From contig JALJCQ010000022.1 in the NCBI GenBank assembly GCA_023091665.1, positions 1,240,001-1,304,000 on the forward strand: a DNA stretch of 64,000 nucleotides, given 5' to 3'. This document shows positions 7,581 through 60,580 of this stretch, in pieces. A model generated the notes under the pieces. The model saw only the letters and a program-made list of their open reading frames with translations. It had not been told where the DNA came from and did no database searches. The stretch is from Pythium myriotylum. Its lineage: Eukaryota; Oomycota; Peronosporomycetes; Pythiales; Pythiaceae. Position numbers and translations under genes: made by a program. Each line of letters opens with the position of its first letter. The first letter of the stretch is position 1.

Positions 7581-8450
7581 ATGCGAATCTCCTTCGCGAT
7601 CGTCGTCTCGTCGCTGCTCAGTGCAGCGTCGGCGTCCTCCTCGCTGCGGTCGGTAGCGATCACCGAAGACACGCCGCCGCCTGGCACCTCAGCGAGCAGC
7701 TACGCGCTCTGCACCGAGGACGTCGTGACGCCGTTCGGCGACGCGATCCTCGTGGCGTCCAACGAGTGCGCCGCCAAGACGAGTTACGACTGGAACAGCG
7801 TGCTACTGCCGACGACCGCCGAGCGTACCGAGCTCTGCACGTGCACGCAGCTCATCAACAAGCTCAAGACTGTCAAAGTGCCGCATTGCGCCATCTACCG
7901 CAGCGGCGCGCTCTACTCGTACGCGCAGCTCATCCAATACGCATTCGGATTGTGCAACTCGAGCGGCGGCACCTCGTCCACCTCGTCCGCAACAACGACT
8001 ACCACAGCGACGTCGACCCCGACCACGTCCACGCCATTCACTTACACACCCGTCACCTACTCGCCGATCACCTACACGCCGTTCACCTACACGCCGATCG
8101 CGACAAAGTCGTACGACTTTGGCACTTGTGTGTTCAGTCGCTCCGTCCACTTCTCTAGCTACTGGATCTAACCCCTTGTTATTTGCCGTGCAGCGACTTC
8201 ATCCTCGACGCGCAAGTCCAAGAGCAAAGTCGGTCTCATCGTCGGCGTGCTCGCCGGCGTCGTGGGCGTCGGCGGCCTCGCGGGCTTCGTGGTCCACAAA
8301 CGCAAGCAAAGCGCCGAGACCGACGATTGCGAGCCAGCCGCCGGCAAAACAGAAGACCAAGACCAGCTCTCGCCGCTCGGAGAGACCTCGGCGCCTTTCG
8401 CAGCGTCGGCGCCGACGCCCTCGCCGAAGATCGCCAAACAGCTGGCGTGA
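7581..8450 (+). CDS. Elicitin-like single-pass membrane protein without kinase (2 exons)
   Basis: A 267-residue product. Residues 1-19 form a clear signal peptide (MRISFAIVVSSLLSAASAS). The elicitin-like domain has Cys44, 63, 86, 88, 103 and 125; C4-x14-C5 is exactly the elicitin value, while C3 and C4 are one residue apart instead of four. A Thr/Pro-rich stalk follows with repeats of TYTP(V/I/F), then a membrane span (VGLIVGVLAGVVGVGGLAGFVV), a basic stop-transfer and a ~55-residue tail with no kinase. I infer a 66-bp intron at 8128-8193 (GTGTGT...TGCAG): without it the frame stops at 8171 and loses the TM segment, and the neighbour at 8792 has an equivalent phase-1 intron at the same place. 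Likely a kinase-less partner or decoy of that neighbouring receptor. Confidence 0.75.
8128..8193 (+). other. Intron of the elicitin-like gene
   Basis: GTGTGT donor and GCCGTGCAG acceptor, phase 1, 66 bp. Removing it joins the Thr/Pro stalk to the membrane-span exon in frame. It corresponds in position, phase and size to the intron at 9222-9286. Confidence 0.7.
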
Positions 8451-8692
8451 CCGTGACTGATTGCCGTCACGGTCGACGGATAGAACCATTTCTGCTCGGT
8501 GCCTTATAGATTTATAGCCAATTATACTTCGCCACATGAGAGATAAAACCTTATAGTATATGTTTAATCATGGACAGTACCCTGTCTCTACCCCTGTTCA
8601 ACCCGTTGCATTGCTTGAAGCTTGCTGCATTATTGGGTTCACCACTTCAATCGCCACTGGCCCCAAGCCCACCCAGCGACTAACCTTCTCTT

Positions 8693-8779
8693 TTAGACGC
8701 GGTCTAACCTTGCCGTTTAGACGCGGTCTAACCTCGCCGTTTAGACGCCGTCTAACACTCTCTCTTAGACGCCGTCTAA
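8693..8779 (+). repeat. Four palindromes at exact 24-bp period before a receptor-kinase start
   Basis: The 15-mers TTAGACGCGGTCTAA (twice) and TTAGACGCCGTCTAA (twice) begin at 8693, 8717, 8741 and 8765. Each is a palindrome with TTAGAC/GTCTAA arms. The array ends 12 bp before the ATG at 8792, so it is either a promoter array bound by a dimeric factor or a run of small hairpins in the 5' UTR. Nothing like it precedes the neighbouring genes. Confidence 0.9.
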
Positions 8780-8791
8780 CCCACTCTCGAC

Positions 8792-10491
8792 ATGGTCTCC
8801 TCGCCGCCTTCCTCGCTGCGCGTCGTGCCCATCGCCGAGCAGACTCCCTCGCCCGGCGCCTCTTCCTCCTCCTCCTCCTATCCGCTCTGCTCCACCGTCG
8901 ACTCGTCCGCCTTCCAGACCGCGATCCTCGCGACCTCGAACGAGTGCGCCGTCAAGACCTCGTACGACTGGCGCTCGGCCTTGCTCCCGACGGCCGCCGA
9001 GCGCCGCGAGCTCTGCTCCTGCACGGCGCTCATCCAGCAGCTGCAGCACGAGCCCGTGCCGCGCTGCTCGCTTGTGCGCGACGGCACGCTCTACTCGTAC
9101 AAACAGGTCGTCGAGTTCGCCTTTGGGCTCTGCAGCGTCAGCGGAAGCAGCAGCGGAGCCTCCGCCACGACCGCGTCGCCGAGCCTCGAGACGAGCGCCG
9201 CGCCCTCGGCCGATGGCACAGGTGAGTTTTTTGTGATTGCTATCGATCTGAGTATAATGTCGGCTGACTGGTCTTGGTGGCCGTAGGTGTCGAGTCCTCG
9301 GGCAAATCCTCGAGCAACGTCGGGCTCATCGCCGGCGTCGTCGTCGGCGTCGCTCTGGTCGTGGCGATCGCGCTCTTCGTCGCGTTCCGACTCGGTCGGA
9401 AGCGCCGAAATGGCGTGAAGGGCAGTTACGTGGAGGAAGGCGCAGACGTCGTCGACGCGGCGCCGTTGTCGCCACTCGAGACCACGAGTGGCGTCTACAC
9501 TGGAGTGGTCGCGTCGCCCAAGAAGACAGCGACGCGCGAGACTGCGACCCAGCGCACGACAGGCACGACGGCCAGCTACGGCGCCAAGCCCACGGACCTG
9601 GGCATCTGGGACGATCCGGCCGTGCTCGCTGTGCGCATCCCGCACGACGCGATCTTCTTTGGGCCGCTGCTCAGTCGCGGCGGCTACGGTGAGGTCTTCA
9701 AGGGCACGTACAAGGGCCAAACGGTCGCTATCAAGCAACTGCTGCCCGAGAGACGCAAGGACGTCGCACAGATCAATGCGTTCCTCGGTGAAATCAAGCT
9801 CATGTCCACGATGGAGCACGAGCGCATCGTTAGGTTCATCGGCGTCGCGTGGAACTCGCTGAGTGACGCCTGTGTCGTGGTCGAGTACATGGAGAACGGC
9901 GACTTGAGGTCGGTGCTCAACCACTGGGATAGCAACACCGACGGCGAGCTGCGCCCGCAAGGATTCGACTCGGACAAAATCAAGATTGCACTCCACATCG
10001 CTCATGCGCTCACGTACCTCCACTCGCTACAGCCCGTGGTCGTCCACCGCGACCTCAAGTCGAAGAATATCCTACTCAACGCGAGCTACGACGCTAAGCT
10101 CACCGACTTTGGTGTCTCTCGTGAGCGAGCCGACTCGACCATGACTGCTGGCGTCGGTTCGTCGCTTTGGATGGCACCAGAAGTGATGCTGGGCGAACGT
10201 TACGACGAAAAAGCGGACGTATTCTCCTTCGGTGTCGTGCTATCTGAACTGGATACGCACAAGTTGCCGTACTCTCAGGCAAAAGAAGCAAGCTCTGACC
10301 GCTCGATCTCCGATGCAGCTGTGCTTCAGTTGGTCTCGCTCGGGCGCTTGACCGTGTCGTTCTCAGACCATGCGGACCCAGAAATAGTCCAGCTCGGTCG
10401 CGAGTGCGTGGAGTTGGATCCGAAGCAGCGCCCGAACTCGGCCGAGGTCCTCCACCGCGTACACCAGGCCATGCGAGGGCGCTTTTATTAG
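8792..10491 (+). CDS. Elicitin-domain TKL receptor kinase (2 exons)
   Basis: A 544-residue protein, exons 8792-9221 and 9287-10491. Ectodomain cysteines 33, 52, 75, 77, 92 and 114 match the subfamily of the gene at 7581 (C4-x14-C5). The N-terminus is short (MVSSPPSSLR) and has lost the hydrophobic core of the signal peptide seen in the neighbour. A Ser/Ala stalk, a TM span (VGLIAGVVVGVALVVAIALFVAF), a basic stop-transfer and a TKL kinase (from about residue 265) follow. Kinase landmarks: glycine loop SRGGYGEV, VAIK lysine, HRDLKSKN, DFG, WMAPE and DVFSFG, all intact. Predicted to transduce an extracellular lipid or sterol signal by Ser/Thr phosphorylation; the ligand is an inference from the elicitin family. 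Confidence 0.87.
9222..9286 (+). other. Intron of the receptor-kinase gene
   Basis: GTGAGT donor and GGCCGTAG acceptor, phase 1, 65 bp. It contains an in-frame continuation of the first frame that stops, while splicing joins the ectodomain to the TM/kinase frame. Confidence 0.82.
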
Positions 10492-18663: not shown

Positions 18664-19156
18664 ACGGAGCGCCCATCTCAGGCTTTGCCTTTCGCGGCTT
18701 GGGTGCGTGATAAGGATACGATCGCTCGGGCCTCGCGAACATGAAACCTACAGTGTGCCGGCGAATGGATAAGTCGAGCCGTGTTGTAATGATACCAATG
18801 TCCGTTTGTTGTCGACTCGAATGCTCTCCCAGTCCACCAGACGCTCCCGGGACATTCGTGGAGAGCACGGATTAGTCTCCTTCTCGACCTTGACCATATG
18901 GGGCTCTGCGTCCTTTGATTCAGTAACCAGTTGCCCTCGTCGTCGTGGGAATCACCCACTTCGCATCGAGATAGGACAGCTGCGCTGACATGGCGCATAG
19001 AGAGAGTCCTCGGTGGTGGCTGCCATTCCGCACAATTGGATGCCTGCATGCGAATGTCCCAGCCGATCCCGGTCGCCACTTCTTTACTAGTCAGAACCAA
19101 GCCAGCGACTTGGTCTCTCTCTCCTCGTGCTGCCCTCGAACTCGAAAGAGAGAGAA

Positions 19157-20689
19157 ATGGCGCCGGTCGACGCGTGCACGGCGACGAGCCTGATCGCCGA
19201 GATCGATGCCTCGACCGTCGCGCTCATGATCACGTGTCAGACGACAGCCAACTACACGCTGCTGCCGCCCACGCAGCAACCGGACGAGGCCACCGTCAAG
19301 CGCATTTGCACCAACTGCACCGACTTCGTGGCCGCCGCCAACTCGACCGTGTTCCCGAGCTGCACGGTCTCCTTTAACAATGGCACAGACAACTCGAGCG
19401 ACACGTCGGCCGCGACGTTCTTCGCCAACCTCCTCCAGCCGTGTATGCCCAAGTCGAGCGGAGTGCCATCGCCGGCGCCCGTTGTTCTGATCACATCGGG
19501 TGGCTCCTCGACAAATATCGGACTCATCGTGGGCGTCGTCGCCGGTGTCGTGGCACTGGCTATCATCGTGTTCATTGCGTTTCGATGCGGCCAGCGCCGT
19601 CGCCGTCAAGAGAAATCCGTCGACGAGAACACGCAGGACAAAGACGTCGTCGAGCCGCCGCCCATCGATTACATCGGTCTTAACAAAACCCCGCGGCCGT
19701 CGCTGAGACGAACTGACCAGGAGAGCAGCACGAAATCGACAGAGCGATCATCCAACGACTCGGAAGTCCTGGCACTACGAATGCGAAGCAACTCACAGGG
19801 ACTGATGAATGATCCCTCGATCCTCACGGTTCGTATCCCATACGACGCGATCCGATTCGACGAGCTCGTGAGCCGCGGTAGCTATGGAGAAGTCTACCGA
19901 GGCTCTTACAAAGGTGAGACCGTCGCGATCAAGCAGCTTCTTCCGGAAAAGCGCAAGGATTTGTCGCAAATCAACGCGTTCATCAGCGAGATCAAGCTCA
20001 TGGCTAGCATGGAACACGCGCGCATCGTTCGGTTCATCGGCGTCTCCTGGACTTCGCTCAGTGATGCCTGTGTTATCGTCGAGTTCATGGAGAACGGAGA
20101 CCTCCGGTCAGTCCTCGCGAGATGGAACGACGAAAACGAGCGGCGGCCACAGGGGTTTGACTCGGACAAGATAAAGATCTCACTCTACATCGCTCACGCA
20201 CTCACTTACCTCCACTCGTTGCAGCCCGTGGTCCTTCACCGTGATCTCAAGTCGAAGAATATTCTTCTAAATGACGATTTCGACGCGAAGCTCACAGATT
20301 TTGGTGTCTCTCGCGAGCGTGCCGACTCGACAATGACAGCGGGCGTCGGATCTTCGCTTTGGATGGCACCAGAGGTTATGCTTGGGGAGCGCTACAACGA
20401 AAGTGCTGACGTGTTCTCGTTCGGCGTCGTCCTCTCTGAGCTCGACACGCAGAAACTGCCCTATTCCCACGCAAAGCAGCCTGGGACGGATCGTCCGCTT
20501 CCAGCAACTGCAATTCTCCAACTGGTCTCGCTCGGCCGACTGACAGTGGAATTCACGGAGCATGCTGACCCGGTTCTCGTTCAGCTAGGGCGAGATTGCG
20601 TGGCCCATGATCCAAATAATCGTCCAAATGCTGCCGAAGTGCTCCACCGAGTCCACCAAGTGATGTACAGAAAGTCGCCGTCATCCTAA
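19157..20689 (+). CDS. Elicitin-domain TKL receptor kinase
   Basis: A 510-residue protein. Ectodomain cysteines 7, 27, 51, 54, 69 and 96: C2-x23-C3 and C4-x14-C5 match elicitins, but C3 and C4 are two residues apart. Several N-x-S/T sequons are present. TM span at ~120-142 (NIGLIVGVVAGVVALAIIVFIAF) followed by RCGQRRRRQ. The kinase begins near residue 233: SRGSYGEV loop, VAIK, HRDLKSKN, DFG, WMAPE, DVFSFG, all intact. The ATG at 19157 (MAPVDAC) is preferred to 19127 because starts a few residues before the first Cys are the rule in this family; either way there is no signal peptide. Sequence is closest to the kinase at 8792. Confidence 0.85.
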   Translation: MAPVDACTATSLIAEIDASTVALMITCQTTANYTLLPPTQQPDEATVKRICTNCTDFVAAANSTVFPSCTVSFNNGTDNSSDTSAATFFANLLQPCMPKSSGVPSPAPVVLITSGGSSTNIGLIVGVVAGVVALAIIVFIAFRCGQRRRRQEKSVDENTQDKDVVEPPPIDYIGLNKTPRPSLRRTDQESSTKSTERSSNDSEVLALRMRSNSQGLMNDPSILTVRIPYDAIRFDELVSRGSYGEVYRGSYKGETVAIKQLLPEKRKDLSQINAFISEIKLMASMEHARIVRFIGVSWTSLSDACVIVEFMENGDLRSVLARWNDENERRPQGFDSDKIKISLYIAHALTYLHSLQPVVLHRDLKSKNILLNDDFDAKLTDFGVSRERADSTMTAGVGSSLWMAPEVMLGERYNESADVFSFGVVLSELDTQKLPYSHAKQPGTDRPLPATAILQLVSLGRLTVEFTEHADPVLVQLGRDCVAHDPNNRPNAAEVLHRVHQVMYRKSPSS

Positions 20690-20784: not shown

Positions 20785-22548
20785 CTAGATGAGTCCTGTG
20801 TAATGTCGATAGATGTGGTGCATCCGACGCAGCAGATCGTTCGCCGACGGACGCTGCCGAGGATCCAACGACACACACGCCAACCCCGTCTCCACCATGT
20901 CCGAGTCCGCACCGTCCGTGAATGCCACCGACAACCGACCCGCCGACACCATGTTCAACATCGCCATCTCCGGGATCTTCCGGTCCGTGCCCGGCTCCAC
21001 AGCGTGCGCGTACGGGAGCTTCTGCGTGTCCAGCTCCGACAGCACGACGCCGAACGAAAAGATATCGGCCTTCTCATCGTACCGCTCGCCGATCATCACC
21101 TCCGGAGCCATCCACATGCTCGAGCCCACGCCCGCCGTCATCGTCTTCTCGGCTCGCTCGCGAGACACGCCAAAGTCGGTCAGCTTGGCGTCCAGATCTC
21201 TCGTCAACAGCACGTTCTTCGACTTGAGATCGCGATGCATCACGGCCGGCTTGAGACCGTGCAAGTACGCGAGTCCGTGGACGATGTGGAGCGCGATCTT
21301 GACCTTGTCGGCGCTGAAGCCCGTGGGCTCGTTCATGGCGTCCGCGTGTGCCAGCATGGACCGCAGGTCGCCGCCATCCATGAACTCGGACACGATGCAG
21401 AGATCGGTGAGCGAGTCCCATGCGACGCCGATGAACCGTACGATGCGCTGGTGTCGTAGCGTGGTGAGCAGTTTGGCTTCTTCGAGGAACGACTCGATCT
21501 CTTTCATGTCTTTGCGTCGTGCTGGGAGCAGTCTTTTGATGGCGACCGTCTCGGAGTTGAAGGATCCACGTAAGACTTCTCCGAAGGCTCCTTGGCTGAG
21601 GATGTCGCCGATCATGATTTCTTCTAGCGGGATGCGCGCGTTTTGGATCTCTCGGTCGCTCCACAAGCCGATGGCACCGGCTCCTCCGTCGCTGGAATTG
21701 GTGTTGGAGTTGAACGATGCGGCGGCAGGACCAGTGGAGTTTGCGCCTGTTGCTGGAGACTTGATGTAGGTTCCTTGGGTCCCACGACTGTGGTCGTGAG
21801 AATTGTTAGTTGTACTAGTCGCCATCACCGCGTATGTCTCTGCTCCATCGTCTTTGGGTTTGTTCTTGTTTCTACCCACTCGGAAAGCGATGAAAGCCAC
21901 GAGCGCGACAACGATGACACCTCCTGCGATCAGGGCGATGACCAAACTCGAACTCATGCCACTACTGCCTGATTGAGCCGACGTGTTGTTCACCGATGGA
22001 CTTGTCGTCGTGGAGGAAGGTGCAAGAGACGTCGTCACCATTGGTGTCCACTCCACACTCGTCTCACTTGAACTCGATCCATTTCCTGGCGTCGACGAAG
22101 GCGCTGTCGTCGTGCCAGGAGCAGTTGTTGTTATTGTCACAGGCGAAGAAGTCGTCGTAGTCGTTGGAGGTGGTGGAGCAGATGTGGTCGTCGCTGGTGG
22201 GGGAGGAGGCGCCGGAGTGGTCGTCGCAGGTGGCGGGGCTGGGGTCGTCGTGGCCGGCGGAACCGTCGTCGTCGCAGGTGGAGTGGCCGAGCACCCGCTC
22301 TGGATGGGGTTGAGCACCTGAGCGTAGAGAGCGATCCCCCACGGGCTCTCGCACTCGCTGGGCTGCGCACCCTTGATGGCCTGGATCACTTTCTGGCATC
22401 GGCTGCTCGCACAGAGCTGCTTGATCTGGTCGTTCGTGGGCGCAGATGAGATCACGAAGAGACTGAAGCCGCCAGCGTCGCTCGAGCACGAGGCCGTGAG
22501 GCCTGTGGCAAAGCCCGCGTCAGTCGCAGACTCGGGGCAGCGGCCCAT
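20785..22548 (-). CDS. Elicitin-domain TKL receptor kinase, tandem copy A
   Basis: A 587-residue protein from MGRCPESATDAGF. Cysteines 4, 21, 46, 51, 66 and 86 give C3-x4-C4-x14-C5, the elicitin signature. A long stalk with PPATTT and APPP repeats follows, then a TM span (SLVIALIAGGVIVVALVAFIAF), a basic stop-transfer, a Gly/Ser/Asn linker and a kinase with SQGAFGEV, VAIK, HRDLKSKN, DFG, WMAPE and DIFSFG intact. The frame is open upstream to 22809, but that extension has no signal peptide or conservation. The cytoplasmic 971 bp (20805-21775) are identical to copy B at 22901-23871, whereas ectodomain and TM differ. Confidence 0.86.
   Translation of the reverse strand: MGRCPESATDAGFATGLTASCSSDAGGFSLFVISSAPTNDQIKQLCASSRCQKVIQAIKGAQPSECESPWGIALYAQVLNPIQSGCSATPPATTTVPPATTTPAPPPATTTPAPPPPPATTTSAPPPPTTTTTSSPVTITTTAPGTTTAPSSTPGNGSSSSETSVEWTPMVTTSLAPSSTTTSPSVNNTSAQSGSSGMSSSLVIALIAGGVIVVALVAFIAFRVGRNKNKPKDDGAETYAVMATSTTNNSHDHSRGTQGTYIKSPATGANSTGPAAASFNSNTNSSDGGAGAIGLWSDREIQNARIPLEEIMIGDILSQGAFGEVLRGSFNSETVAIKRLLPARRKDMKEIESFLEEAKLLTTLRHQRIVRFIGVAWDSLTDLCIVSEFMDGGDLRSMLAHADAMNEPTGFSADKVKIALHIVHGLAYLHGLKPAVMHRDLKSKNVLLTRDLDAKLTDFGVSRERAEKTMTAGVGSSMWMAPEVMIGERYDEKADIFSFGVVLSELDTQKLPYAHAVEPGTDRKIPEMAMLNMVSAGRLSVAFTDGADSDMVETGLACVSLDPRQRPSANDLLRRMHHIYRHYTGLI
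20805..21775 (-). repeat. 971-bp identical kinase segment, copy A
   Basis: Identical base for base, as far as I can read, to 22901-23871. It covers the whole kinase domain and the linker back to IKSPATGANSTG, and ends 16 bp beyond the stop-proximal codons. Sequence on both sides differs between the genes, which marks a conversion or recombination tract. Confidence 0.9.
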
Positions 22549-22883: not shown

Positions 22884-24713
22884 CTATTGCACCTTGTATC
22901 GTCGATAGATGTGGTGCATCCGACGCAGCAGATCGTTCGCCGACGGACGCTGCCGAGGATCCAACGACACACACGCCAACCCCGTCTCCACCATGTCCGA
23001 GTCCGCACCGTCCGTGAATGCCACCGACAACCGACCCGCCGACACCATGTTCAACATCGCCATCTCCGGGATCTTCCGGTCCGTGCCCGGCTCCACAGCG
23101 TGCGCGTACGGGAGCTTCTGCGTGTCCAGCTCCGACAGCACGACGCCGAACGAAAAGATATCGGCCTTCTCATCGTACCGCTCGCCGATCATCACCTCCG
23201 GAGCCATCCACATGCTCGAGCCCACGCCCGCCGTCATCGTCTTCTCGGCTCGCTCGCGAGACACGCCAAAGTCGGTCAGCTTGGCGTCCAGATCTCTCGT
23301 CAACAGCACGTTCTTCGACTTGAGATCGCGATGCATCACGGCCGGCTTGAGACCGTGCAAGTACGCGAGTCCGTGGACGATGTGGAGCGCGATCTTGACC
23401 TTGTCGGCGCTGAAGCCCGTGGGCTCGTTCATGGCGTCCGCGTGTGCCAGCATGGACCGCAGGTCGCCGCCATCCATGAACTCGGACACGATGCAGAGAT
23501 CGGTGAGCGAGTCCCATGCGACGCCGATGAACCGTACGATGCGCTGGTGTCGTAGCGTGGTGAGCAGTTTGGCTTCTTCGAGGAACGACTCGATCTCTTT
23601 CATGTCTTTGCGTCGTGCTGGGAGCAGTCTTTTGATGGCGACCGTCTCGGAGTTGAAGGATCCACGTAAGACTTCTCCGAAGGCTCCTTGGCTGAGGATG
23701 TCGCCGATCATGATTTCTTCTAGCGGGATGCGCGCGTTTTGGATCTCTCGGTCGCTCCACAAGCCGATGGCACCGGCTCCTCCGTCGCTGGAATTGGTGT
23801 TGGAGTTGAACGATGCGGCGGCAGGACCAGTGGAGTTTGCGCCTGTTGCTGGAGACTTGATGTAGGTTCCGCGCGTCCCGCGACTTCGGTTGTTGGAGTT
23901 ATTGGTGCGGCTAGCCGTCACCACTACGTAGGATGCTTCTTCTGGAGTTCGTTTCTTGTTTCTGCCCATGCGGAAGGCGACGAATGCCACGATTGTGACG
24001 AGAAGAACGCCGCCAACTACAAGGCCGATGATCAGATTCGAGCTCGTGCCGCTGCCAGACTGGGGCGTCGTGTTGATGGTCGAAGAGCTATTGCTGCTCG
24101 GACCTCCCGTTACTTGTGCTGGGGCCAGCGTATTAGTTGAGTTCACAGTCTGAGTTCCTTCACCCGATCCTGAAGATTGATGTGATGCCGAGCCTTCGCT
24201 TGAGCCTGTCCCTTGATTTAAGCTACCACTTGGGGACGAAGTTGTGCTGGCTGGCGACGTGGTCGTCGTCGTCGGCGACGTCGTGGTCGACGCCACAGAA
24301 GCCGCGGTCGTCGCTGGAGGAGCTGCTGTTGTCGTCGCAGGTGGAGCTGGCGTGGCCGCTGGCGTTGTTGGCGGCGGTGCGGGGGCAGGCGTCGTGGTCG
24401 CAGGTGGCGGCGCTGGCGTGGTCGTCGCCGGCGGTGTGGCTGAGCAGCCCGCCTGGATGGGGTTCAGGATGTCTTTGTAGATGTAAAAGTCCCATGCGGG
24501 CCCGCCCGTGTTGCACTCGGTGGGCTGCGCTCTCTTGATGGCCTGGATCACTTGCTGGCAGGACGAGCTCGCGCAGATTTTCTGGATCTGCGAGGCCGAG
24601 GGCGCGGCCGTGATCACGAAGAAGCTGTAGTTGTCGGCGTCGCGCGAGCACTGGTACTCGGCCGAGCTGATCGCGAAGACCGCATCGGAGAACGCCGTGC
24701 CGCAGGTCGGCAT
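22884..24713 (-). CDS. Elicitin-domain TKL receptor kinase, tandem copy B
   Basis: A 609-residue protein from MPTCGTAFSDAVF. Cysteines 4, 22, 47, 52, 67 and 90 (C3-x4-C4-x14-C5). The stalk is Pro/Ala/Thr-rich (PPATTTPAP repeats) and then Ser/Gly-rich. TM span NLIIGLVVGGVLLVTIVAFVAF, basic stop-transfer GRNKKR, then the linker and an intact kinase identical to copy A. The open frame upstream to 24974 includes a pyrimidine-rich TTCTTCCTTCCAG that looks like a splice acceptor, so an unseen first exon is possible, but I could not build an in-frame signal-peptide exon. C-termini differ (RRYKVQ here, RHYTGLI in copy A). Confidence 0.86.
   Translation of the reverse strand: MPTCGTAFSDAVFAISSAEYQCSRDADNYSFFVITAAPSASQIQKICASSSCQQVIQAIKRAQPTECNTGGPAWDFYIYKDILNPIQAGCSATPPATTTPAPPPATTTPAPAPPPTTPAATPAPPATTTAAPPATTAASVASTTTSPTTTTTSPASTTSSPSGSLNQGTGSSEGSASHQSSGSGEGTQTVNSTNTLAPAQVTGGPSSNSSSTINTTPQSGSGTSSNLIIGLVVGGVLLVTIVAFVAFRMGRNKKRTPEEASYVVVTASRTNNSNNRSRGTRGTYIKSPATGANSTGPAAASFNSNTNSSDGGAGAIGLWSDREIQNARIPLEEIMIGDILSQGAFGEVLRGSFNSETVAIKRLLPARRKDMKEIESFLEEAKLLTTLRHQRIVRFIGVAWDSLTDLCIVSEFMDGGDLRSMLAHADAMNEPTGFSADKVKIALHIVHGLAYLHGLKPAVMHRDLKSKNVLLTRDLDAKLTDFGVSRERAEKTMTAGVGSSMWMAPEVMIGERYDEKADIFSFGVVLSELDTQKLPYAHAVEPGTDRKIPEMAMLNMVSAGRLSVAFTDGADSDMVETGLACVSLDPRQRPSANDLLRRMHHIYRRYKVQ
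22901..23871 (-). repeat. 971-bp identical kinase segment, copy B
   Basis: Partner of 20805-21775. Identity begins at GTCGATAGATGTGG near the stop codon and ends at GATGTAGGTTCC in the juxtamembrane linker. Confidence 0.9.
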
Positions 24714-24948: not shown

Positions 24949-25437
24949 TCACGCGAGCGAGAGGAAGGCTGCAACGGCCGCGACCGCGAGCCTCGCGACG
25001 CGCACGCGTCTTGCGTGGCTCTTGGTGGGCGTCGGTGCTGTCGTCGTGGTCCTCGTGGCGTTTCTTGGCGTCGGCGTCACTGTGGACGCGGCTGGCGCGA
25101 CCGTGTCGACGGTCTCAGCTCGCGATGCTTCGGAGCCGTCGCTCTTGTGGGAGCCAGCAGAGATGCTCGCTGCTGGGAGCGACTTCTGGTTGCACGCGGC
25201 GTCGATCGGGTCGAGGATTTGCCTGTAGAGGTCCATTGACGAGCCGACCTGGCACTCGCTGGGCACGGCCGCGCGGATGGCCTTGAGGAGTTTCGAGCAG
25301 TTTGGGTTTGAGCAGATGCGCGCGATCTGCGGCGGCGTCGGCGGCGCGGAGATCGCTGCGAAAGAGAAGCCCGAGGCCGCAGCGCACGAGGACGCGTCGG
25401 CGACCGCTGTCGAGAACGCGCTTCCACAGAGCACCAT
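24949..25437 (-). CDS. Elicitin-like protein with C-terminal hydrophobic anchor, no kinase
   Basis: A 162-residue protein from MVLCGSAFSTAV. Cysteines 4, 18, 42, 47, 62 and 82 give C2-x23-C3-x4-C4-x14-C5, the canonical elicitin spacing. A Ser/Thr/Pro stalk leads to a terminal hydrophobic segment (RLAVAAVAAFLSLA) preceded by Arg residues and with no cytoplasmic tail, suggesting a GPI-attachment signal or a tail anchor. Elicitin-like proteins are often GPI-anchored. No N-terminal signal peptide is visible. It is divergently arranged with the receptor kinase at 25910, and the two share 472 bp of upstream sequence. Confidence 0.75.
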   Translation of the reverse strand: MVLCGSAFSTAVADASSCAAASGFSFAAISAPPTPPQIARICSNPNCSKLLKAIRAAVPSECQVGSSMDLYRQILDPIDAACNQKSLPAASISAGSHKSDGSEASRAETVDTVAPAASTVTPTPRNATRTTTTAPTPTKSHARRVRVARLAVAAVAAFLSLA

Positions 25438-27589: not shown

Positions 27590-27929
27590 TTCAGTCCCTC
27601 CAATGACAACTTCACATCAAGTAAGATCCAGTGCCAACAGCACAGACACTCAAACCTGAACGGCTGAGTTCTTCTCGTCCTCGTTTGAATCAGGTTCCAA
27701 TCACATCCCCATCGGATCAATATCGCAGCCCGCATCCCCAACACATGTAGTGCTAAACAAAGCCCCGATTAATCTCACTTTTGTAGTATCCCAACTGTCG
27801 ACTAGACACGCCGCAGCCTGCGATGTACGCACTTATCCTATTCGCATGACTTGGTCGCAGGGAAGACTTTGTGGCACAAAGAGAGGCAGTTGTTGTTCGC
27901 GATTACCTGTCATCAGATCCACTCAATCC
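27590..27929. other. Intergenic, no gene seen
   Basis: The phosphatase frame is open through part of this stretch but carries no signal peptide or homology before 27930. It presumably holds the phosphatase promoter. Confidence 0.5.
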
Positions 27930-29924: not shown

Positions 29925-30662
29925 ATGGTTTTCCAGTCGTTATTCAATCCGCCACCCGGAGTCAGATGCCCTCCGACGCTTTCAAACTCGATCTTTCATA
30001 GGAGCCCGAAATGCTCACTGGATTCGGGCTATTCTTTCTGGGTCATCATGGCGCCGCCCACGGAGCTGGAAGTCAAGTCCATTTGCCAGAGCCGTGAGTG
30101 CATGGAGATCGTGGACACTATGCGCAGCGTCTCAGCAACAGAGTGCGTAATGGACGACGGATATTACCTCTACCAGGACATCCTTAATCCAATTCTCAAT
30201 CAGTGTGGCTCGGCGAAGAGTAACGTGGCACCTACGATTCAACCAGCAGCGACCCAGCCACCAGCGGCTCCGCCAGTTATAACGACCCCACAGACGACCG
30301 CGCCTGTGGTCGTTCCGAGGCCGACACCGACTGAGTCGGAGAACTCCACCGCCACTGCCATAGCAGCACCACCGCCAACGACCGCTCTAAGTCCTGTTCC
30401 GTCCTCGAGCGGTGTCGCTGCGACCCCAGAGCTCGCGAAGAACACAAGCTCGAGCAAATCGTCAGACTCGAGCTCGGTTGTGTGGATCGTCGTAGGCTGC
30501 GCAGCAGGACTTATCGTGATTGTCGCGCTCGTGGTTTTTATTCGCCAGCGACGGAAACGCGACCAGTCCGTGGAGCAGAACCAAGAGCTAGTGTACGGAT
30601 ACGAAGGGCAGTTTGACACGGAAGCGCCCATGGCTCGACGCGTCGCAACACGAGACACCTGA
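29925..30662 (+). CDS. Elicitin-domain membrane protein truncated before the kinase
   Basis: A 245-residue protein of the 25910/31638 subfamily: MVFQSLFNPPPGVRC start, six Cys with C3-x4-C4-x14-C5, Thr/Pro stalk, TM span (VVWIVVGCAAGLIVIVALVVFI), basic RQRRKR and the shared juxtamembrane QELVYGYEGQFDTEAP. It then stops 11 codons later (VATRDT), where its relatives continue into a kinase. The next 380 bp hold no kinase remnant, so the truncation is clean. Either a decoy or co-receptor, or a receptor that lost its kinase by deletion. Confidence 0.8.
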   Translation: MVFQSLFNPPPGVRCPPTLSNSIFHRSPKCSLDSGYSFWVIMAPPTELEVKSICQSRECMEIVDTMRSVSATECVMDDGYYLYQDILNPILNQCGSAKSNVAPTIQPAATQPPAAPPVITTPQTTAPVVVPRPTPTESENSTATAIAAPPPTTALSPVPSSSGVAATPELAKNTSSSKSSDSSSVVWIVVGCAAGLIVIVALVVFIRQRRKRDQSVEQNQELVYGYEGQFDTEAPMARRVATRDT

Positions 30663-31334: not shown

Positions 31335-31602
31335 TTAGTCGATTGTGAGTGATGGTGCGTAACCCTCCAAATGATGGTCAAAGGCAAATCCTCCGGGCAA
31401 CTCCGTCTCACCTTGTTTTGCAACTTGCGCTCCTCGGCGTATCAACGTGCACCCATTACACCCAGGCGATCGCCAGCTGAGTGGCCGCCGGAACTGACTG
31501 GCTGCGTCTCTTTCCATGTGCCTCTCGCCCCTCTCTCATCTCCACCCTGGAAATTTTTCACGGCCAGACACTCACACGTCCGTTGGAGACGCTTACTCGC
31601 GT

Positions 31603-33476: not shown

Positions 33477-33899
33477 TTAGAGCGCTATCGCGAGCTGGAG
33501 AATTCCGATTGCAGCAATCGCCACTACTCCAATCCACATTTGACTATTTGAAGCCGAAGCCGTTGTCCCTTGACCATCAAAGCTCGATGAAGGCGGTAGT
33601 GTGGGGGTCTCGACCTTGGCCTCGTCACATGTCTTCAGAATAGGCGTGAGAATGTCCTCGTACAGCAAGTACTTATCACTCGTCACGCATTCGTCCTTGC
33701 CAGCGACCTTTTGCAGTTCCCGCACAAGCAGTAGACACGTCCCCGTGAGGCACACGCTCGTGAGTTGCGCCGAGGTGGGCTTCGTTGGCACAAGCCAGAA
33801 CGAATAGCCCGTTTGGCCTGAGCATAAATTGCCGCTCGTGGAAATGGCCTCGGTGATCTGAGGAAGGCACGGCGTGCTGGTCTTGGCAGTCAGGGGCAT
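33477..33899 (-). CDS. Elicitin-like protein with C-terminal hydrophobic tail, no kinase
   Basis: A 140-residue protein from MPLTAKTSTPC (an ATG 45 bp upstream is also possible). Cysteines 11, 26, 50, 55, 71 and 91: C2-x23-C3-x4-C4 canonical, C4-x15-C5 one longer. Motifs GYSFWL and YLLYEDILTPI are shared with the 25910 and 31638 ectodomains. The C-terminus is a 20-residue hydrophobic segment (WIGVVAIAAIGILQLAIAL) ending the protein, which suggests a GPI signal. It is convergent with the kinase gene at 31638, 126 bp between stops. No signal peptide seen. Confidence 0.75.
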   Translation of the reverse strand: MPLTAKTSTPCLPQITEAISTSGNLCSGQTGYSFWLVPTKPTSAQLTSVCLTGTCLLLVRELQKVAGKDECVTSDKYLLYEDILTPILKTCDEAKVETPTLPPSSSFDGQGTTASASNSQMWIGVVAIAAIGILQLAIAL

Positions 33900-45746: not shown

Positions 45747-45761
45747 CGACGGCCGTAGGAT

Positions 45762-47837: not shown

Positions 47838-48065
47838 GTTGGTGCGAAAGGTGGCAGGCTCGGGCTTTTGTGTTGTCGGCGGACGATCGCGAACTGATCG
47901 ATCGCCCGGCAACCCTGGTAGAACGGGTGGCTCGTGCACCACTGAGGTCGTCTCTCTCAAACTTGATTGAGGAGAGGCAACCGTTGGATGTGACACGAGA
48001 ATCACCGATGACAGGGACCTCCAGCTGCTCCTGTGAAAACCAGCTTTTCACTTGCAGCCAAAAGC

Positions 48066-48728
48066 TCCATTTGTACGCCGGCAAACACCGCAGCAGTCGA
48101 TCCACTTCCCACGCTGCACAGACGTGAAGTCAACACCGACCACGTCAACGTCGAATCGAGGTGGATGGCACGCGTATACTTCGCCTGAGACGACAGAGGC
48201 GTCTGTGTTGGTCTTTACTGAGTCTGGCTTGCCCGACTTCATCCAACATGTGCCCCCGTTGTAGTTGGTCCAGGAGTATGCGAAGCAACCGAGTGTATCC
48301 TGGCACTTGTAACTGCAGTCTGTTGGGTTGGCTGCTAGCGAATTAGCAATGTCGAGACCTGGGTAGTCGGCACGTTCTTGTGGAGGCAGCAATAGCCTCA
48401 AGTCTGCAGCAGGCATACAGCGTGCTGAAGCGACCCGAGATGAGGGATCGTCTGGATCCTGGTAGTCATGGTTGTATAAGTTCGTCTGCGTGCGGCAAAA
48501 GCCTCCTGGTGTGTCCGGCGTGGTAATGAACACGAAGTTATCACACGTGACGTCGTCGAGACAAAAGCGTTCGCATTCGCTGATTGACGGGATGTCGAAA
48601 CTAGTGATCAATGGAGCGCCTTGCAAATGCAGATTCTTGAAGGGTCGCGTACACTTGCGATTGTAGAGAGCATGAACCGATTGTGGAAGCACAAATGCCA
48701 CGAGCAAAGACGGTGTCCAGAGGAGCAT
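48066..48728 (-). pseudogene. Secreted PAN/Apple-domain protein, 5' part of a gene split by a DIRS element
   Basis: Begins with a signal peptide (MLLWTPSLLVAFVLPQSVHA, start 48728). PAN domain 1: CTRPFKNLHLQGAPL...ECERFCLDDVTCDNFVF...C. PAN domain 2: DIANSLAANPTDCSYKCQDTLGCFAYSWTNYNGGTCWMKS. PAN domain 3: VDVVGVDFTSVQRGKWIDCCGVCRRTNG, where homology ends; the element then adds a few codons to a TGA at 48048. PAN modules bind carbohydrate or protein and are common in secreted oomycete proteins attached to cell-wall polymers. The remainder is at 42487-42601, so the gene is split by 5.4 kb; a protein with two and a half PAN domains could still be made. Confidence 0.82.
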
Positions 48729-48841
48729 GACCCGGGAGAAGAACTGGAAATGGCGAGCTGCTTCTCTTACCTGACTACCTGTATTGCGACAATCAACGGA
48801 TGGTGGACAGATTCTTTTCCTTTGAATCAATTCAACTAAAC

Positions 48842-49115
48842 GTGGGAGATCCACTACCACTCTTCGTATCTGTAAGTACCAGCTGTGTGATATGAAGAGT
48901 GGTAGGATCTCCCACAGGATTCCTGTTAGACTTCGACTGCAATCATACCACTCTTCATTCGTATCGCACGTGAACATCGCGCGATTAATACTGTATCCAA
49001 CGTGGACATGCACAACCTCATACGGTATCTAAAAAAACTCTCGAGGATGTGCCAATGGAGCGCGATAGGCACTACTCTTCATGCATGTAGGTACCACATG
49101 TGTGATATGGTACAG
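48842..49115. repeat. Foldback element and a diverged partial copy
   Basis: 48842-48915 is a hairpin with arms starting GTGGGAGATCC and running through CTACCACTCTTC, two gaps or mismatches, around GTAAGTACCAGCTGTGTGAT. A related sequence (CTCTTCATGCATGTAGGTACC then TGTGTGATATGG) recurs at 49074-49115. No gene lies in 48729-49155. Confidence 0.7.
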
Positions 49116-49155: not shown

Positions 49156-49188
49156 CTGTGATTTGTGATTCAGAATCACAAATCACAG
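49156..49188. repeat. Perfect 16-bp-arm palindrome
   Basis: Arms CTGTGATTTGTGATTC and its exact complement around a single A. It lies in the leader of the subtilisin gene, followed by further palindromes such as AGGCCCGAGA/TCTCGGGCCT near 49257-49277. Confidence 0.88.
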
Positions 49189-49314
49189 CCAGAAAAAGGC
49201 ATGAGGTGGATCATGCATATCCACTCGGCTGTGTCTGGTCTCTCGGCGAGAGACCAGGCCCGAGAGTCTCGGGCCTCTGAACTGCACTCGAGATTTGTCT
49301 GCCGACTGGACCCA

Positions 49315-50838
49315 ATGAAGGTTGCCGCGGTTCTTGTTTCTGCGGCCCTCATTCTCTGCGATAATGTCACTGCCTCGATTGGGCCGAGAGTCACTCCACG
49401 TGTCCACCGCAAACTGCAGCATCATGGTGCTGTCAACATTATAGTCACCATGAGAGACCGCCCAAGTCTTGACTTATCCTCATCGTCCCGCCGTCTCGCT
49501 GGCACCGGCAATTCCCGCGGCGCAAAGGTTTCGGAAGTGGTGGAGAGGCTCCTCGCTCATGCAACGGTGAGCCAACAGCAAATCACGAAGCTCATGGCCC
49601 AGGAATCATCGAAACCACTGATGAGCGAGATGCGCAGCTTCTGGATCACCAATCAAGTGTTTTTTCGCGCAGCCACACTCGATCTCGTGGAAAAACTCAT
49701 AACTATGGACAGTATCGCGAGCATTGAAGAGGAAGAGATCCTTTCTCTTCCGACCACTCTGAAGCCGGTGGCACCTGCACGGTCAGAAAATCGCTCGCTC
49801 AGTTCAGTGGAACTGCCATGGGGTATCAAAGCAATCAACGCAACGGATGTATGGGCCAAAGGATACACCGGCCAAGGCGTCATTATCGGCACAATCGATA
49901 CTGGCGTGAGAGCAACGCACGAGGCACTACGAGCGAGTTTCCGTGGTGCCTACGGCTGGTTTGATCCGGAGAAGAAGGCATCACAGCCGTACGACGCGGC
50001 AGGCCACGGTACTTACATTCTGGGCACGATGGTTGGCTCGGGCGGCGTGGGTGTTGCTCCTGGGGAAAAGTGGATGGCATGTAAAGGCTGTCGTGAAGCT
50101 GGGTGCCTGTGGTCAGATTTGTTGAGTTGTGGTGAGTTCATGACATGTCCGACGGATCCAAATGGGAATAACCGAGATTGCACGAAGGCTCCAGACGTGA
50201 TTAACATCTCATGGGCTGGTGAACCGGGCGACCAAACCTACGCCGATATCATCAATACATGGTACCAGCTCGGCATCCTGACAGTCGCAGCAATCGGCAA
50301 TCAGCCTCCCGCCTGTGGCACGGCCAAGAGTCCTGGAGACCTGGCCAATCTTATTAGCGTTGGCACGACTGACCTCTACAACATCATGTCTGGCTCAGCA
50401 ACAGGCCCGTCTTGGAATGGGATGATAAAACCCGAAGTTACCGCTCCTGGGGTCGATATCATCTCCACAGCAGTCGAAGCTGACGGCGAGTACGCAATGG
50501 CTTCAGGCTCATCTATCGCTGCACCGCACGTCACAGGTATCGCGGCGCTGCTCTTGTCCGCAAAGCCGTCGCTGACTGTCGACCAACTCTTCCATCTCAT
50601 CGTGGGAAACACGAACAGAGTGTATCCTTACCACGGGATCGATCTGTTCTGTCCCAACAGGGACTTTCCCAACAACGTGTACGGCTTTGGCAGTGCTAAC
50701 GCTATACTTCCATTCCTTCGGCTTCAGCAGAAGCGTTTTCCAGGAGAATGCACCGGGCTGAATGAGAGTGCCTGTCACGACACCCTTTTGTGTGGGTGGA
50801 GCAACGTCAAACAGCAGTGTGTTCGCTGGTGGGTTTAA
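49315..50838 (+). CDS. Subtilisin-like serine protease (S8), secreted
   Basis: A 507-residue preproprotease. Signal peptide MKVAAVLVSAALILCDNVTA; an inhibitor I9-type propeptide around VNIIVTMRDRP; catalytic domain from about residue 165. Triad by motif: Asp195 (GTIDTGVRATHEA), His231 (AGHGTYILGTMVGSGG), Ser400 (ASGSSIAAPHVTG), with the oxyanion Asn329 (AAIGNQPP). All are intact. A short Cys-rich C-terminal tail (CTGLNESACHDTLLCGWSNVKQQC) may be a PSI-like or adhesion module. The start at 49315 is chosen over 49165 because it begins the signal peptide. Such proteases in oomycetes are mostly extracellular or vacuolar. Confidence 0.94.
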   Translation: MKVAAVLVSAALILCDNVTASIGPRVTPRVHRKLQHHGAVNIIVTMRDRPSLDLSSSSRRLAGTGNSRGAKVSEVVERLLAHATVSQQQITKLMAQESSKPLMSEMRSFWITNQVFFRAATLDLVEKLITMDSIASIEEEEILSLPTTLKPVAPARSENRSLSSVELPWGIKAINATDVWAKGYTGQGVIIGTIDTGVRATHEALRASFRGAYGWFDPEKKASQPYDAAGHGTYILGTMVGSGGVGVAPGEKWMACKGCREAGCLWSDLLSCGEFMTCPTDPNGNNRDCTKAPDVINISWAGEPGDQTYADIINTWYQLGILTVAAIGNQPPACGTAKSPGDLANLISVGTTDLYNIMSGSATGPSWNGMIKPEVTAPGVDIISTAVEADGEYAMASGSSIAAPHVTGIAALLLSAKPSLTVDQLFHLIVGNTNRVYPYHGIDLFCPNRDFPNNVYGFGSANAILPFLRLQQKRFPGECTGLNESACHDTLLCGWSNVKQQCVRWWV

Positions 50839-52150: not shown

Positions 52151-52159
52151 GAATTAAGG

Positions 52160-57861: not shown

Positions 57862-58701
57862 CTACAGACAGATTTGGCCCTGGCTGTTGAGCTTGGCCCA
57901 CATGGGCCGAGGCGAGAAGTGGTCGTAGCTGTCTCGTGGTGTCGTGGGCGGTGCGAGTTGCGTGGAGGCGAACACGGCCACGGAGTCTCGCTGCTCAGGC
58001 TGCTGCTCTCGATTCCGCTTCTGGTCGAAGTAAAAGGCGATGAAGCCGACGATCGCGACGATCGCGACGCCACAAGCGATCACGACGAGCAAAAGGTTCA
58101 CATCCAGGCGTTCATGGTGGGCAGTCGAGGATCCAGTGTTTGCTGTGGGCGAAGGAAGAACGATCGCGGCTTTTGCAGCGGACGGACTTGATGTCAGTAG
58201 AAGCGAGGTCGGCGAGGTCGGTGCGGGTGCCGATGTTGATACAGATGGCAATGGTGGAGGTGAAGCCGTTGAGGGATTCTCGCTGCTTTCAGCATCAGAC
58301 GCTACTATTAGTGAGCCGTCTGAGCTGCCGTCTGTCGAAGGCGCTGGTGGTAATAGTGTGGAGGGCGAGGACTTGGGAGCGACAGTTGAAGGACTCGGAG
58401 TTTTCGACGATGGAGTGGGTATTGAATCTTCAGCACATTCTACCGAGATCGGGTTGATGATATCTCTGTACAGTCGAACACCTTCGGCTGCGGAAACAAC
58501 GCACTCATTTGGCACAGCCTTCTTGAGCGACTTGAGGAACGCGTCGCAGTTCGCACTCGCACAGAACTCGGCGACCACCTTGGTCGAGGGCTTGGCAGTC
58601 GCATTGGTAAACGAATACGCGGTCTCCTTCGTACATTTGACACCCAGTGTCCCCCGGGCCGTCGTGGTTAGAGTGTCTCCGCATTCTGATAGTGTCCCCA
58701 T
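57862..58701 (-). CDS. Elicitin-domain single-pass membrane protein without kinase
   Basis: A 279-residue protein from MGTLSECGDTL. Cysteines 7, 24, 48, 53, 68 and about 92 give C2-x23-C3-x4-C4-x14-C5, canonical elicitin spacing. A ~120-residue Ser/Thr/Pro stalk, TM span (LLLVVIACGVAIVAIVGFIAFYF), basic DQKRNRE and a ~45-residue tail without kinase. The frame is open upstream to 58932, but that part contains no signal peptide. It follows the receptor kinase at 58925-60580 on the same strand, repeating the kinase plus kinase-less pairing seen elsewhere. Confidence 0.8.
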   Translation of the reverse strand: MGTLSECGDTLTTTARGTLGVKCTKETAYSFTNATAKPSTKVVAEFCASANCDAFLKSLKKAVPNECVVSAAEGVRLYRDIINPISVECAEDSIPTPSSKTPSPSTVAPKSSPSTLLPPAPSTDGSSDGSLIVASDAESSENPSTASPPPLPSVSTSAPAPTSPTSLLLTSSPSAAKAAIVLPSPTANTGSSTAHHERLDVNLLLVVIACGVAIVAIVGFIAFYFDQKRNREQQPEQRDSVAVFASTQLAPPTTPRDSYDHFSPRPMWAKLNSQGQICL

Positions 58702-58924
58702 CGCGCAAAATGGAGAATGCTGGTTGGAGGATCTTTTCACACCTGAACCCAGGCCGCTAATGGATACAGGGGGCAGTTGGATCACATCCAAAGTGTGTGG
58801 CTTCACAAACGTCGAGCCAATCGTTGCGCCTGACGTTGGCCCACGGGCTAAATCTCCACATATCGCAAAGATCTCCCCTCTTGAGGTTCTCTCTCGTGTC
58901 GATTCATTAAATACTTTGCAATAA

Positions 58925-60580
58925 CTAGACAAATGCCACGTAACTGCCCATTACCTGGTTCACGCGCTGCATCAATTCGGCGGCCGTCGGTCGCTCACGT
59001 GGCTCTAGCGCCACGCATTCTCGCCCAAGGGCCACCATGTCAGCGTCCGCGCCGTCGGTGAAAGCCACGCTGAGCTTTCCTAATGCCACGAGGCGCAGGA
59101 TCGCTGGTAGAGGAAGTCGTCGGCCGTCGGGCTGTGGCTGCAACATGTCAGCGTACGGTAATCGGTGGGTGTCGATCTCCGACAACATCACGCCAAAAGA
59201 AAAGACATCGGCTTTCTCGTCGTATCGTTCCCCAATCATCACTTCCGGTGCCATCCACAGTGATGTACCGACTTCGGCGGTCATCGTGTTGTTGCTGCGT
59301 TCTCGAGAGACACCAAAGTCGGTCACGAGTGCATCGAGCTCGCTTGTAAGAAGCACGTTTCGGGACTTGAGGTCGCGATGTAGCACGATGGGGCTCAGTG
59401 AATGGAGGTAGTATAGCGCCTCGGCGACGTGGAGTGCGATCTTGACTTTGTCGAAACTGAACCCGACTAATCGTTTATCCTTCTCGTAGGTCTGCAGCAA
59501 GGTACGGAGATCTCCACCGTTGGCAAATTCCGAGACTACCATCGGATTCTGCTCCACGTCGTCCCATGCAACTCCGACAAGACGCACGATGCGCTCGTGA
59601 TGGAGATATGCCATAAGCTTCGCCTCTCCCAAGAACTGCATAACTTCTTTCGCCATCTGACGGCGCTCTGGGAGCAGTTTCTTAATGGCGACGGGGGTTT
59701 TACCGTCGAACGTGCCTCGGTAAACTTCTCCGTAGCCTCCTTGGCTGATCAGCTTGCCGAGTTTGATCTGTGAAATTGGTATCCGAAGCATAGCGATCGA
59801 CGGGTCTTTAAGCGGGGATTCCACGTTATCAGCAACGAAGCTGCCCGAACCGATCGCTTCGTCGCCGTAAGAGCCAATGCTCGGCTTTGAGCTGTGGGCT
59901 GTCGACGCACGAGACTGCTCCGAGCTCACTTTCGACGATACGGCGACCGCTGTAAAGTCGGTGTAGTCACGGCGCGACTCAAATTCGTCCGTCTCGTTGC
60001 CGGGACTCACAGAAGTGCCATTTGAGCGGTAGCGGCGGCTTTCATCGTACTTGCCAACGGAGCTTGCTCGACCGCGCTTCACGCGCACGGCAATGAACGC
60101 GGCGAGTAATCCGCACACGATCGCTCCGAGTATCATCGCCACGATGGGTCCGATTCCGAGCGCACCGTCAGAGTCCCCCGAGCTTTGCGTCACCGCGCTT
60201 CGTCCGCCGTCATCACTGCGAGACGATGCCGGTCCCGACGTCGTCGTTCTTTCTGCGATGACGGCGCCGTTCGATCCTGTCTCGAATCCGCACGCCGCGT
60301 TGACGGGGTCCAGCACGTCCTTGTACAGGTAGAGCTCGGCTTGCTGCGTCGCGAGCTGACACTCGTTCGGCGCGACGCTCTTGATCGACGCCACGACGCT
60401 GCGGCAGGCCTCGACGCTGCACATGCGCTTGACCTGCTCATCGGTCGGGCGCGCGCTGATGACGAAGAACGAAAAGCTCGAGGCGGCGGCGCAGTCGGTG
60501 GCCGCTTGCTCGCCGAAGGTCACGCGTCCGAGCGCGTCGGCGTCGCAGCGCGCCGCCGCCAACCGCCGCATGCGCCGCAT
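58925..60580 (-). CDS. Elicitin-domain TKL receptor kinase
   Basis: A 551-residue protein from MRRMRRLAAARC (the frame is open to 60721, so the start is uncertain). Cysteines 12, 30, 54, 59, 74 and 97: C2-x23-C3-x4-C4-x14-C5. Short stalk, TM span (ALGIGPIVAMILGAIVCGLLAAFIAV), basic RVKRGR, a ~100-residue Ser-rich linker, then a kinase: SQGGYGEV, VAIKK, HRDLKSRN, DFG, WMAPE, DVFSFG intact. A glycan-like NxS/T set is lacking in the ectodomain. It is the last family member in the window. Confidence 0.86.
   Translation of the reverse strand: MRRMRRLAAARCDADALGRVTFGEQAATDCAAASSFSFFVISARPTDEQVKRMCSVEACRSVVASIKSVAPNECQLATQQAELYLYKDVLDPVNAACGFETGSNGAVIAERTTTSGPASSRSDDGGRSAVTQSSGDSDGALGIGPIVAMILGAIVCGLLAAFIAVRVKRGRASSVGKYDESRRYRSNGTSVSPGNETDEFESRRDYTDFTAVAVSSKVSSEQSRASTAHSSKPSIGSYGDEAIGSGSFVADNVESPLKDPSIAMLRIPISQIKLGKLISQGGYGEVYRGTFDGKTPVAIKKLLPERRQMAKEVMQFLGEAKLMAYLHHERIVRLVGVAWDDVEQNPMVVSEFANGGDLRTLLQTYEKDKRLVGFSFDKVKIALHVAEALYYLHSLSPIVLHRDLKSRNVLLTSELDALVTDFGVSRERSNNTMTAEVGTSLWMAPEVMIGERYDEKADVFSFGVMLSEIDTHRLPYADMLQPQPDGRRLPLPAILRLVALGKLSVAFTDGADADMVALGRECVALEPRERPTAAELMQRVNQVMGSYVAFV

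Follow-up and report, generated by a model that had tools for sequence, protein, structure and literature searches.

The closest described system is SSRK1 of Phytophthora sojae, a receptor-like kinase that is reported to act with the elicitin SOJ5 and to turn a sterol signal into calcium influx and activation of mitogen-activated protein kinase (MAPK) (PMC12662980). Elicitins are regarded as specific to oomycetes, and how these organisms sense the sterols that they cannot make, and whether elicitin-like proteins (ELLs) bind sterols, were given as open questions in 2021 (PMC8211186); SSRK1 has since become one answer for P. sojae (PMC12662980). Here we describe a stretch of 64,000 nucleotides (nt) of Pythium myriotylum (contig JALJCQ010000022.1, positions 1,240,001 to 1,304,000), referred to as the window, in which eight kinases with one predicted membrane span carry a six-cysteine N-terminal domain that, by sequence comparison, matches the elicitin profile in seven of the eight at an expectation value (E) of 4e-5 or better. 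An earlier note made from the sequence alone had claimed eight such genes within 7581 to 60580, and all eight were found, one of them (8792) after joining two open reading frames (ORFs), 8792-9286 and 9274-10491, through a 65-nt GT-AG intron (9222-9286) into a frame of 544 codons. Coordinates are collected in Table 1.

Both SSRK1 and the window genes are receptor-like kinases tied to elicitins, but the elicitin of SSRK1 is separate and secreted, whereas here it is the ectodomain itself, i.e., the one-polypeptide fusion differs from SSRK1 with its separate elicitins. The P. parasitica homologue of SSRK1, PPTG_09207, has been placed among receptors with extracellular leucine-rich repeats (LRRs) (PMC12223298), and to the extent that these can be ascribed to SSRK1 via the homologue, its architecture differs from the window fusion; the Pfam matches of the eight window kinases, listed to an E of 1, include no LRR. 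With cryptogein, cinnamomin and sylvaticin the window domains have the six-cysteine pattern and the predicted fold in common. However, the canonical elicitins were solved as 94–99 residues without span or kinase, and the C1-C2 and C5-C6 spacings vary among the eight window kinases (14–19 and 19–26, respectively). ELLs and non-clade-1 elicitins have C-terminal extensions but no kinase, anchoring at the hyphal surface has been proposed for ELI-2 to ELI-4, and the sterol binding of ELLs is described as unsettled (PMC8211186). The kinase-less neighbors in the window look like them, with an elicitin domain and a stalk. On the kinase side, the TKL receptor-like kinases of P. infestans are described as oomycete-specific, forming large membrane-spanning families that are often clustered, and most membrane-spanning kinases of that kinome have a signal peptide or signal anchor; the table of non-kinase Pfam domains includes LRR and others and no elicitin, and the word elicitin is absent from the text (PMC3019232). 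In Pythium guiyangense, expanded TKL kinases and elicitins were tallied as separate families (PMC6502433). We found no description of an elicitin-kinase fusion in the accessible parts of the open-access literature, and one may exist elsewhere, for example in the Saprolegnia domain-combination Table S9 (PMC3681718).

The ectodomains were compared with the Pfam elicitin family (PF00964, curated cut-off 25 bits), a check that the earlier note had proposed. Six of the eight kinases scored above the cut-off (19127, 27.7 bits; 20785, 43.3; 22884, 42.9; 25910, 45.8; 31371, 38.0; 58925, 52.9), the names 19127 and 31371 being those of the ORFs 19127-20689 and 31371-33350, within which the starts of 19157 and 31638 lie. 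Gene 8792 came just under it (24.0 bits, E 4e-5), and 56006 failed it, as discussed below. The cysteine spacings reported earlier were reproduced: C2-x23-C3, C3-x4-C4 and C4-x14-C5 in 25910, 31638 and 58925, with C4-x14-C5 in seven of the eight kinases and x17 in 56006. When 12 elicitin-type domains of the window were aligned, the six cysteines were the only invariant columns (12/12). Leave-one-out profiles recovered 11 of these with E values no worse than 3e-6. A profile of all 12 matched solved elicitins at E 7e-12. The strict six-cysteine pattern was present in 20 of 55 kinase ORFs (window plus fetched loci, some double-counted where loci overlap) and in none of 200 shuffles of the first 500 residues. 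The model of the 58925 ectodomain (predicted local distance difference test, pLDDT, 93.8) has a predicted elicitin fold, at 22–25% identity to the solved elicitins 1beo, 1bxm, 1lri, 1ljp and 2pos. The elicitin fold that had been proposed has the support of Pfam, of the solved elicitins recovered in profile searches and, for 58925, of the predicted structure.

The kinases were matched by Pfam PK_Tyr_Ser-Thr in all eight cases. HRDLK and DFG are present in 8/8, VAIK and APE in 7/8; the intact VAIK, HRDLK and DFG that had been claimed for all therefore hold with the exception of 56006, which has VAVK (and SPE). Kinase domains of the seven other genes are 50–59% identical to that of 58925, whose top-scoring solved kinases include TNNI3K, CTR1 and MLK4, which we take to be TKL kinases; EGFR and tyrosine kinases of the Src type are among them as well. 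Each of the eight has a single strong hydrophobic span. Of the 29 members of the genome-wide family described below, 28 have an excess of lysine and arginine on the kinase flank of the span, and one is tied (hydropathy-based). The membrane span, this charge bias and the signal peptides of 13 of the 29 paralogues back the term receptor kinase. The predicted topology is N-out, with the elicitin domain outside the cell: the invariance of the six cysteines and the distribution of charge around the span argue for it, and leaderless members would then need insertion as reverse signal anchors.

In the assembly (58.7 Mb, 55 contigs) there are at least 135 elicitin matches at E 1e-3, and 19 genes have Pfam elicitin and kinase together (18 in a single frame plus the spliced 8792). 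Ten more were added by their six cysteines only, namely 56006, C9:3459 (with looser spacing) and eight genes in a tandem cluster at C3:2.073-2.095 Mb, giving 29. These counts come from kinase searches compared with the places of the elicitin matches and from reading the ectodomains of fetched relatives; a search with PF00069 returned mostly other kinase groups and was excluded. Other kinases of the same clade bear ectodomains of unrelated kinds, such as mucin-like ones, repeats or different cysteine patterns, and at L012:3487-5982 (-) the outer part is a long repeat of the VNGVAKVVDGT type in place of elicitin. The kinase tree has 49 rows, leaving out duplicates from overlapping loci, fragments (L013:2661, window 34478 and two L029 pieces) and the TAG-interrupted C3:2080380; two C34 rows and one C13 row contain the first kinase exon only, and the C9 rows contain an insert. 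On this tree the 29 elicitin kinases need four label changes, against a shuffled mean of 15.8; at least two changes are imposed by branches with good support. Twenty-four of these kinases, together with nine that lack elicitin, make up a supported 33-row clade (99/95); one of the nine, C22:1312, lies inside a weakly supported subgroup of 17 rows (81/78) otherwise made up of elicitin kinases. The other five elicitin kinases, from C3 and C23, group apart from this clade, likewise with support (100/99). The tree is compatible with two acquisitions or with one and several losses; both fit. A search of a protein collection with the 58925 ectodomain and with the 12-domain profile gave no match; as the 12 domains do find solved elicitins, the collection seemingly holds no elicitins of this size, and the result has no bearing on the spread of the fusion. 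Elicitins are also found in other arrangements: at C12:3734843-3759811 and C12:3823785-3825173 the matches lie in long open frames, the longest of 1643 codons, and some of these frames encode between two and four elicitin domains. At C1:2499345-2523963 elicitin genes are densely packed on both strands, and many of them score identically against the profile.

The two halves of these receptors differ in how far they are conserved. Among the 351 pairs formed by 27 of the 29 genes, median identity was 0.24 for ectodomains vs. 0.59 for kinases. Genes 20785 and 22884 agree at every one of 970 bases between the juxtamembrane region and a point close to the stop codon, while identity between their elicitin domains is 52%. 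Such a pattern would be expected after recent gene conversion; it is seen in this one pair, and an assembly error is the alternative.

The window also contains kinase-less elicitin genes next to the receptors. Four of them (24949-25437, 29925-30662, 33477-33899 and 57862-58701) were missing from the earlier note, whose first coordinate, 7581, does begin an elicitin-like gene (7581-8171, with a signal sequence), but one without a receptor kinase. For five of the eight kinase-less elicitins lying within a few kb of a receptor, the nearest relative among 42 other domains was the adjoining receptor: 7581/8792 (57%, 1.1 kb apart), 29865/31638 (56%), C9:196/C9:195 (82%), C13:204/C13:202 (78%) and 24949/22884 (44%, nearly tied with 58925 at 43%).

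Signal sequences were judged by hydropathy (threshold 2.0) and by eye. Thirteen of the 29 receptor genes have one in frame upstream of the domain (12 at or above the threshold, one at 1.96), C34_87 belongs to neither class, and the rest are referred to as leaderless. In 14 of the 15 leaderless genes (the exception is 8792) there is an in-frame ATG no more than 48 nt (16 codons) before C1, vs. 2/15 and 1/15 for the other frames. The four kinase-less genes of the window without signal peptide all have an in-frame ATG within the same distance of C1 (other frames 2/4 and 0/4). In the 11 signal-peptide genes compared, no in-frame ATG lies there. Identity upstream of the start in seven gene pairs was 0.57–0.62, vs. 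0.59 when shuffled (one pair shuffled), and downstream 0.64–0.85; the same drop is seen in a pair whose two members both have signal peptides, indicating that it marks the coding start and not a missing leader. Upstream scans revealed no convincing signal-peptide exon for most genes. Hydrophobic candidates lie 5' of 19127, 24949 and 25910, but the scan showed no donor-acceptor pair that would splice them in frame. Exact matches to what we take to be the consensus of the oomycete initiator motif were found in 4 of 30 genes (31–32 nt before the ATG of 31638 and C9_193, 48 nt for C13_202 and more than 140 nt for 58925), and we draw no conclusion from them. About half of the elicitin-kinase family probably starts at the elicitin domain. 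Directly 5' of 8792 there is a short tandem repeat (8560-8790, +, by eye), at the place where its sister 7581 has the signal sequence.

Regarding the ligand, Phytophthora has been reported to be unable to make oxidosqualene (PMC5289490). In this genome neither domain of oxidosqualene cyclase was matched by an exon-by-exon search, which intron-rich genes could escape. Squalene synthase is present, sterol reductase is present with one in-frame stop or intron, and squalene epoxidase gave a single partial match (88 of 276 positions, E 8e-5). Because the cyclase was not found, and given the likeness to Phytophthora, the genome looks like that of a sterol auxotroph. The sensing of lipids or sterols suggested by the earlier note is plausible, and the elicitin kinases are most likely receptors for sterols or other lipids.

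From the elicitin match, the stalk, the hydrophobic span, the kinase motifs, the tandem clustering and the far greater likeness of kinases than of ectodomains, all read in the sequence, we consider it probable that in the eight window kinases the outer six-cysteine domain binds a sterol or other lipid and likely switches on the inner kinase. The elicitin domain would load a lipid into its cavity outside the cell, loading or pairing would alter the assembly of the receptor, and the kinase inside would then signal. In the leaderless members the span would insert as a reverse signal anchor, pushing the elicitin domain out. The adjoining kinase-less elicitins, one with a signal sequence and others with a hydrophobic tail or a span, may be lipid donors, partners or decoys for the neighboring receptor, an arrangement that would be the one-locus counterpart of the pairing of SSRK1 with elicitins in P. 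sojae. We hold only tentatively, and think rather doubtful, the wider proposal of a diversifying lipid-receptor repertoire in which elicitin and kinase were fused at least twice, gene conversion keeps the kinase uniform while the pocket diverges, each receptor is matched to a free or tethered elicitin nearby and half of the members reach the surface leaderless. Several observations weigh against lipid sensing by elicitin receptors. Gene 56006 gave 12.5 bits with Pfam elicitin (E 0.15, no match), a leave-one-out E of 0.029 (the fair value, since profile A1 includes 56006 and its matches to this gene are not independent) and a model with pLDDT 74.7 and a best Foldseek E of 1.2, so that we do not accept it as a proven elicitin; the divergent elicitin ectodomain proposed for it is not established. 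Two of the 19 Pfam-defined genes (C3:1735973 and C23:1470094) match only part of the elicitin profile, and of four C3-cluster genes scanned none passed the cut-off (E 0.00056, 0.0015, 0.032 and one without match). Three of the eight kinase-less elicitins (57862, 33477 and C9:3463) are not closest to the adjoining receptor. No clear signal peptide is found in 15 of the 29 genes including all eight window kinases, on which the earlier note was silent. Finally, the equivalent of Tyr47 (cinnamomin numbering), a tyrosine that we presume to contact the sterol hydroxyl in cryptogein, is absent from all nine receptor domains that could be numbered. As a mark dividing receptors from carriers we rejected this residue because the seven numbered elicitins of the C1 cluster of this genome are also without it; solved sylvaticin has leucine at that position.

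The missing Tyr47 equivalent is also what would be expected if the ectodomains no longer bound lipids and had become protein-protein modules that read other elicitins, be they self- or lipid-loaded, or host proteins, akin to the coupling of SSRK1, which signals through elicitin binding (PMC12662980). The low likeness of ectodomains relative to kinases and the adjoining same-subtype elicitins in five of eight cases would fit as well, and we regard such protein ligands as unlikely, a little more so than the repertoire just described. That many of the copies are debris of tandem duplication without a distinct function, the leaderless starts and the copies without kinase being products of decay and only the signal-peptide-bearing members being at work, appears improbable. 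The leaderless genes would agree with it, as would the C3:2080380 copy in the C3 elicitin cluster (L018:3362-5110, -), possibly a pseudogene with one in-frame TAG, and two pieces that are probably duplication debris, a kinase fragment at 34478-34978 (-) and an ectodomain-like remnant at 30747-31334 (+) seen by eye and without Pfam match. However, the kinase motifs are intact in 8/8 (with the variants of 56006), the six cysteines are kept in 12/12 window domains, and decay would not be expected to yield the in-frame ATGs before C1. The alternative to which we give most weight, still short of an even chance, concerns topology only and is compatible with lipid sensing: signal peptides would be hidden on unseen 5' exons or behind upstream in-frame starts, and all members would be ordinary type I receptors. 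The intron of 8792 is real, good acceptor-like stretches lie 5' of 22884 and 19127, and 56006 is a real possibility: its in-frame ATG 171 nt before C1 comes with a strongly hydrophobic stretch, there are candidates for splicing, and the upstream codons resemble coding sequence (0.16 per codon). Gene 20785 likewise has an in-frame ATG with a hydrophobic run 270 nt before C1, but its codons there look non-coding (-0.45 per codon). These two upstream starts raised the weight of hidden signal peptides and lowered that of the repertoire. Against hidden signal peptides, the upstream stop is as close to the ATG as 223 nt in 57862, 235 nt in 22884 and 335 nt in 20785, an ATG with a hydrophobic run is absent from 7 of the 10 upstream stretches searched, and there is a strong enrichment of ATGs in the C1 frame.

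Table 1. Elicitin-type receptor kinases, kinase-less elicitin genes and shared tracts in the window.
Position	Strand	Feature	Evidence
7581..8171	+	Elicitin-like protein without kinase; signal sequence hydrophobic; closest to the ectodomain of 8792	Pfam elicitin 26.4 bits
8792..10491 (exons 8792-9221, 9287-10491)	+	Elicitin-type receptor kinase	Pfam elicitin 24.0 bits (just below cut-off), Pkinase 177.5
19157..20689	+	Elicitin-type receptor kinase, 510 aa, N-terminus MAPVDAC	Pfam, motifs, start analysis
20785..22548	-	Elicitin-type receptor kinase, 587 aa if the start is MGRC; in-frame ATG exists upstream	Pfam, motifs, start analysis
20805..21774	-	970-base tract, identical to 22901-23870; spans juxtamembrane region and kinase of 20785	Sequence identity
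22884..24713	-	Elicitin-type receptor kinase, 609 aa, N-terminus MPTC	Pfam, motifs, start analysis
22901..23870	-	970-base tract, identical to 20805-21774; spans juxtamembrane region and kinase of 22884	Sequence identity
24949..25437	-	Kinase-less elicitin-like protein, hydrophobic C-terminal tail (tail by eye)	Pfam elicitin 45.8 bits
25910..27589	+	Elicitin-type receptor kinase, 559 aa	Pfam, motifs
29925..30662	+	Elicitin domain, stalk and predicted membrane span, without kinase; ectodomain sister of 31638	Pfam elicitin 44.5 bits
31638..33350	+	Elicitin-type receptor kinase, 570 aa	Pfam, motifs, start analysis
33477..33899	-	Kinase-less elicitin-like protein, hydrophobic C-terminal tail	Pfam elicitin 29.8 bits
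56006..57412	-	Same-clade kinase, divergent six-cysteine ectodomain; start possibly further upstream	Motifs, tree, profile scores
57862..58701	-	Elicitin domain, stalk and predicted membrane span, without kinase; adjoins 58925	Pfam elicitin 45.8 bits
58925..60580	-	Elicitin-type receptor kinase, 551 aa, ectodomain modelled	Pfam elicitin 52.9 bits; model pLDDT 93.8

Other genes are found in the window. A purple acid phosphatase (27750-29444, +) lies within the receptor cluster, and there are also a cytochrome P450 (14-1441, +), a PAN-domain protein (48048-49013, -) and a subtilase (49165-50838, +). A Ty3-type retrotransposon (35235-41256, +) contains gag with a zinc knuckle, protease-reverse transcriptase-RNaseH-integrase and a chromodomain. 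The large ORFs at 42700-48005 (-), with weak matches, below the cut-off, to reverse transcriptase and to the phage-integrase family, are perhaps a recombinase-type retroelement.

What is new here is the 970-base identity next to divergent ectodomains, the kinase-less neighbors matched to their receptors in five of eight cases, the leaderless half of the family and the oxidosqualene cyclase that was not found. The leaderless members pose a separate question of cell biology. The combination of a uniform kinase with a variable ectodomain makes a case for studying receptor repertoires beyond plants and animals. The fusion ties the elicitin fold to signaling in a single polypeptide and offers a ready single-protein assay and, if the reading as a diversifying repertoire is true, these receptors would be the one-piece lipid-sensing system of a sterol auxotroph.

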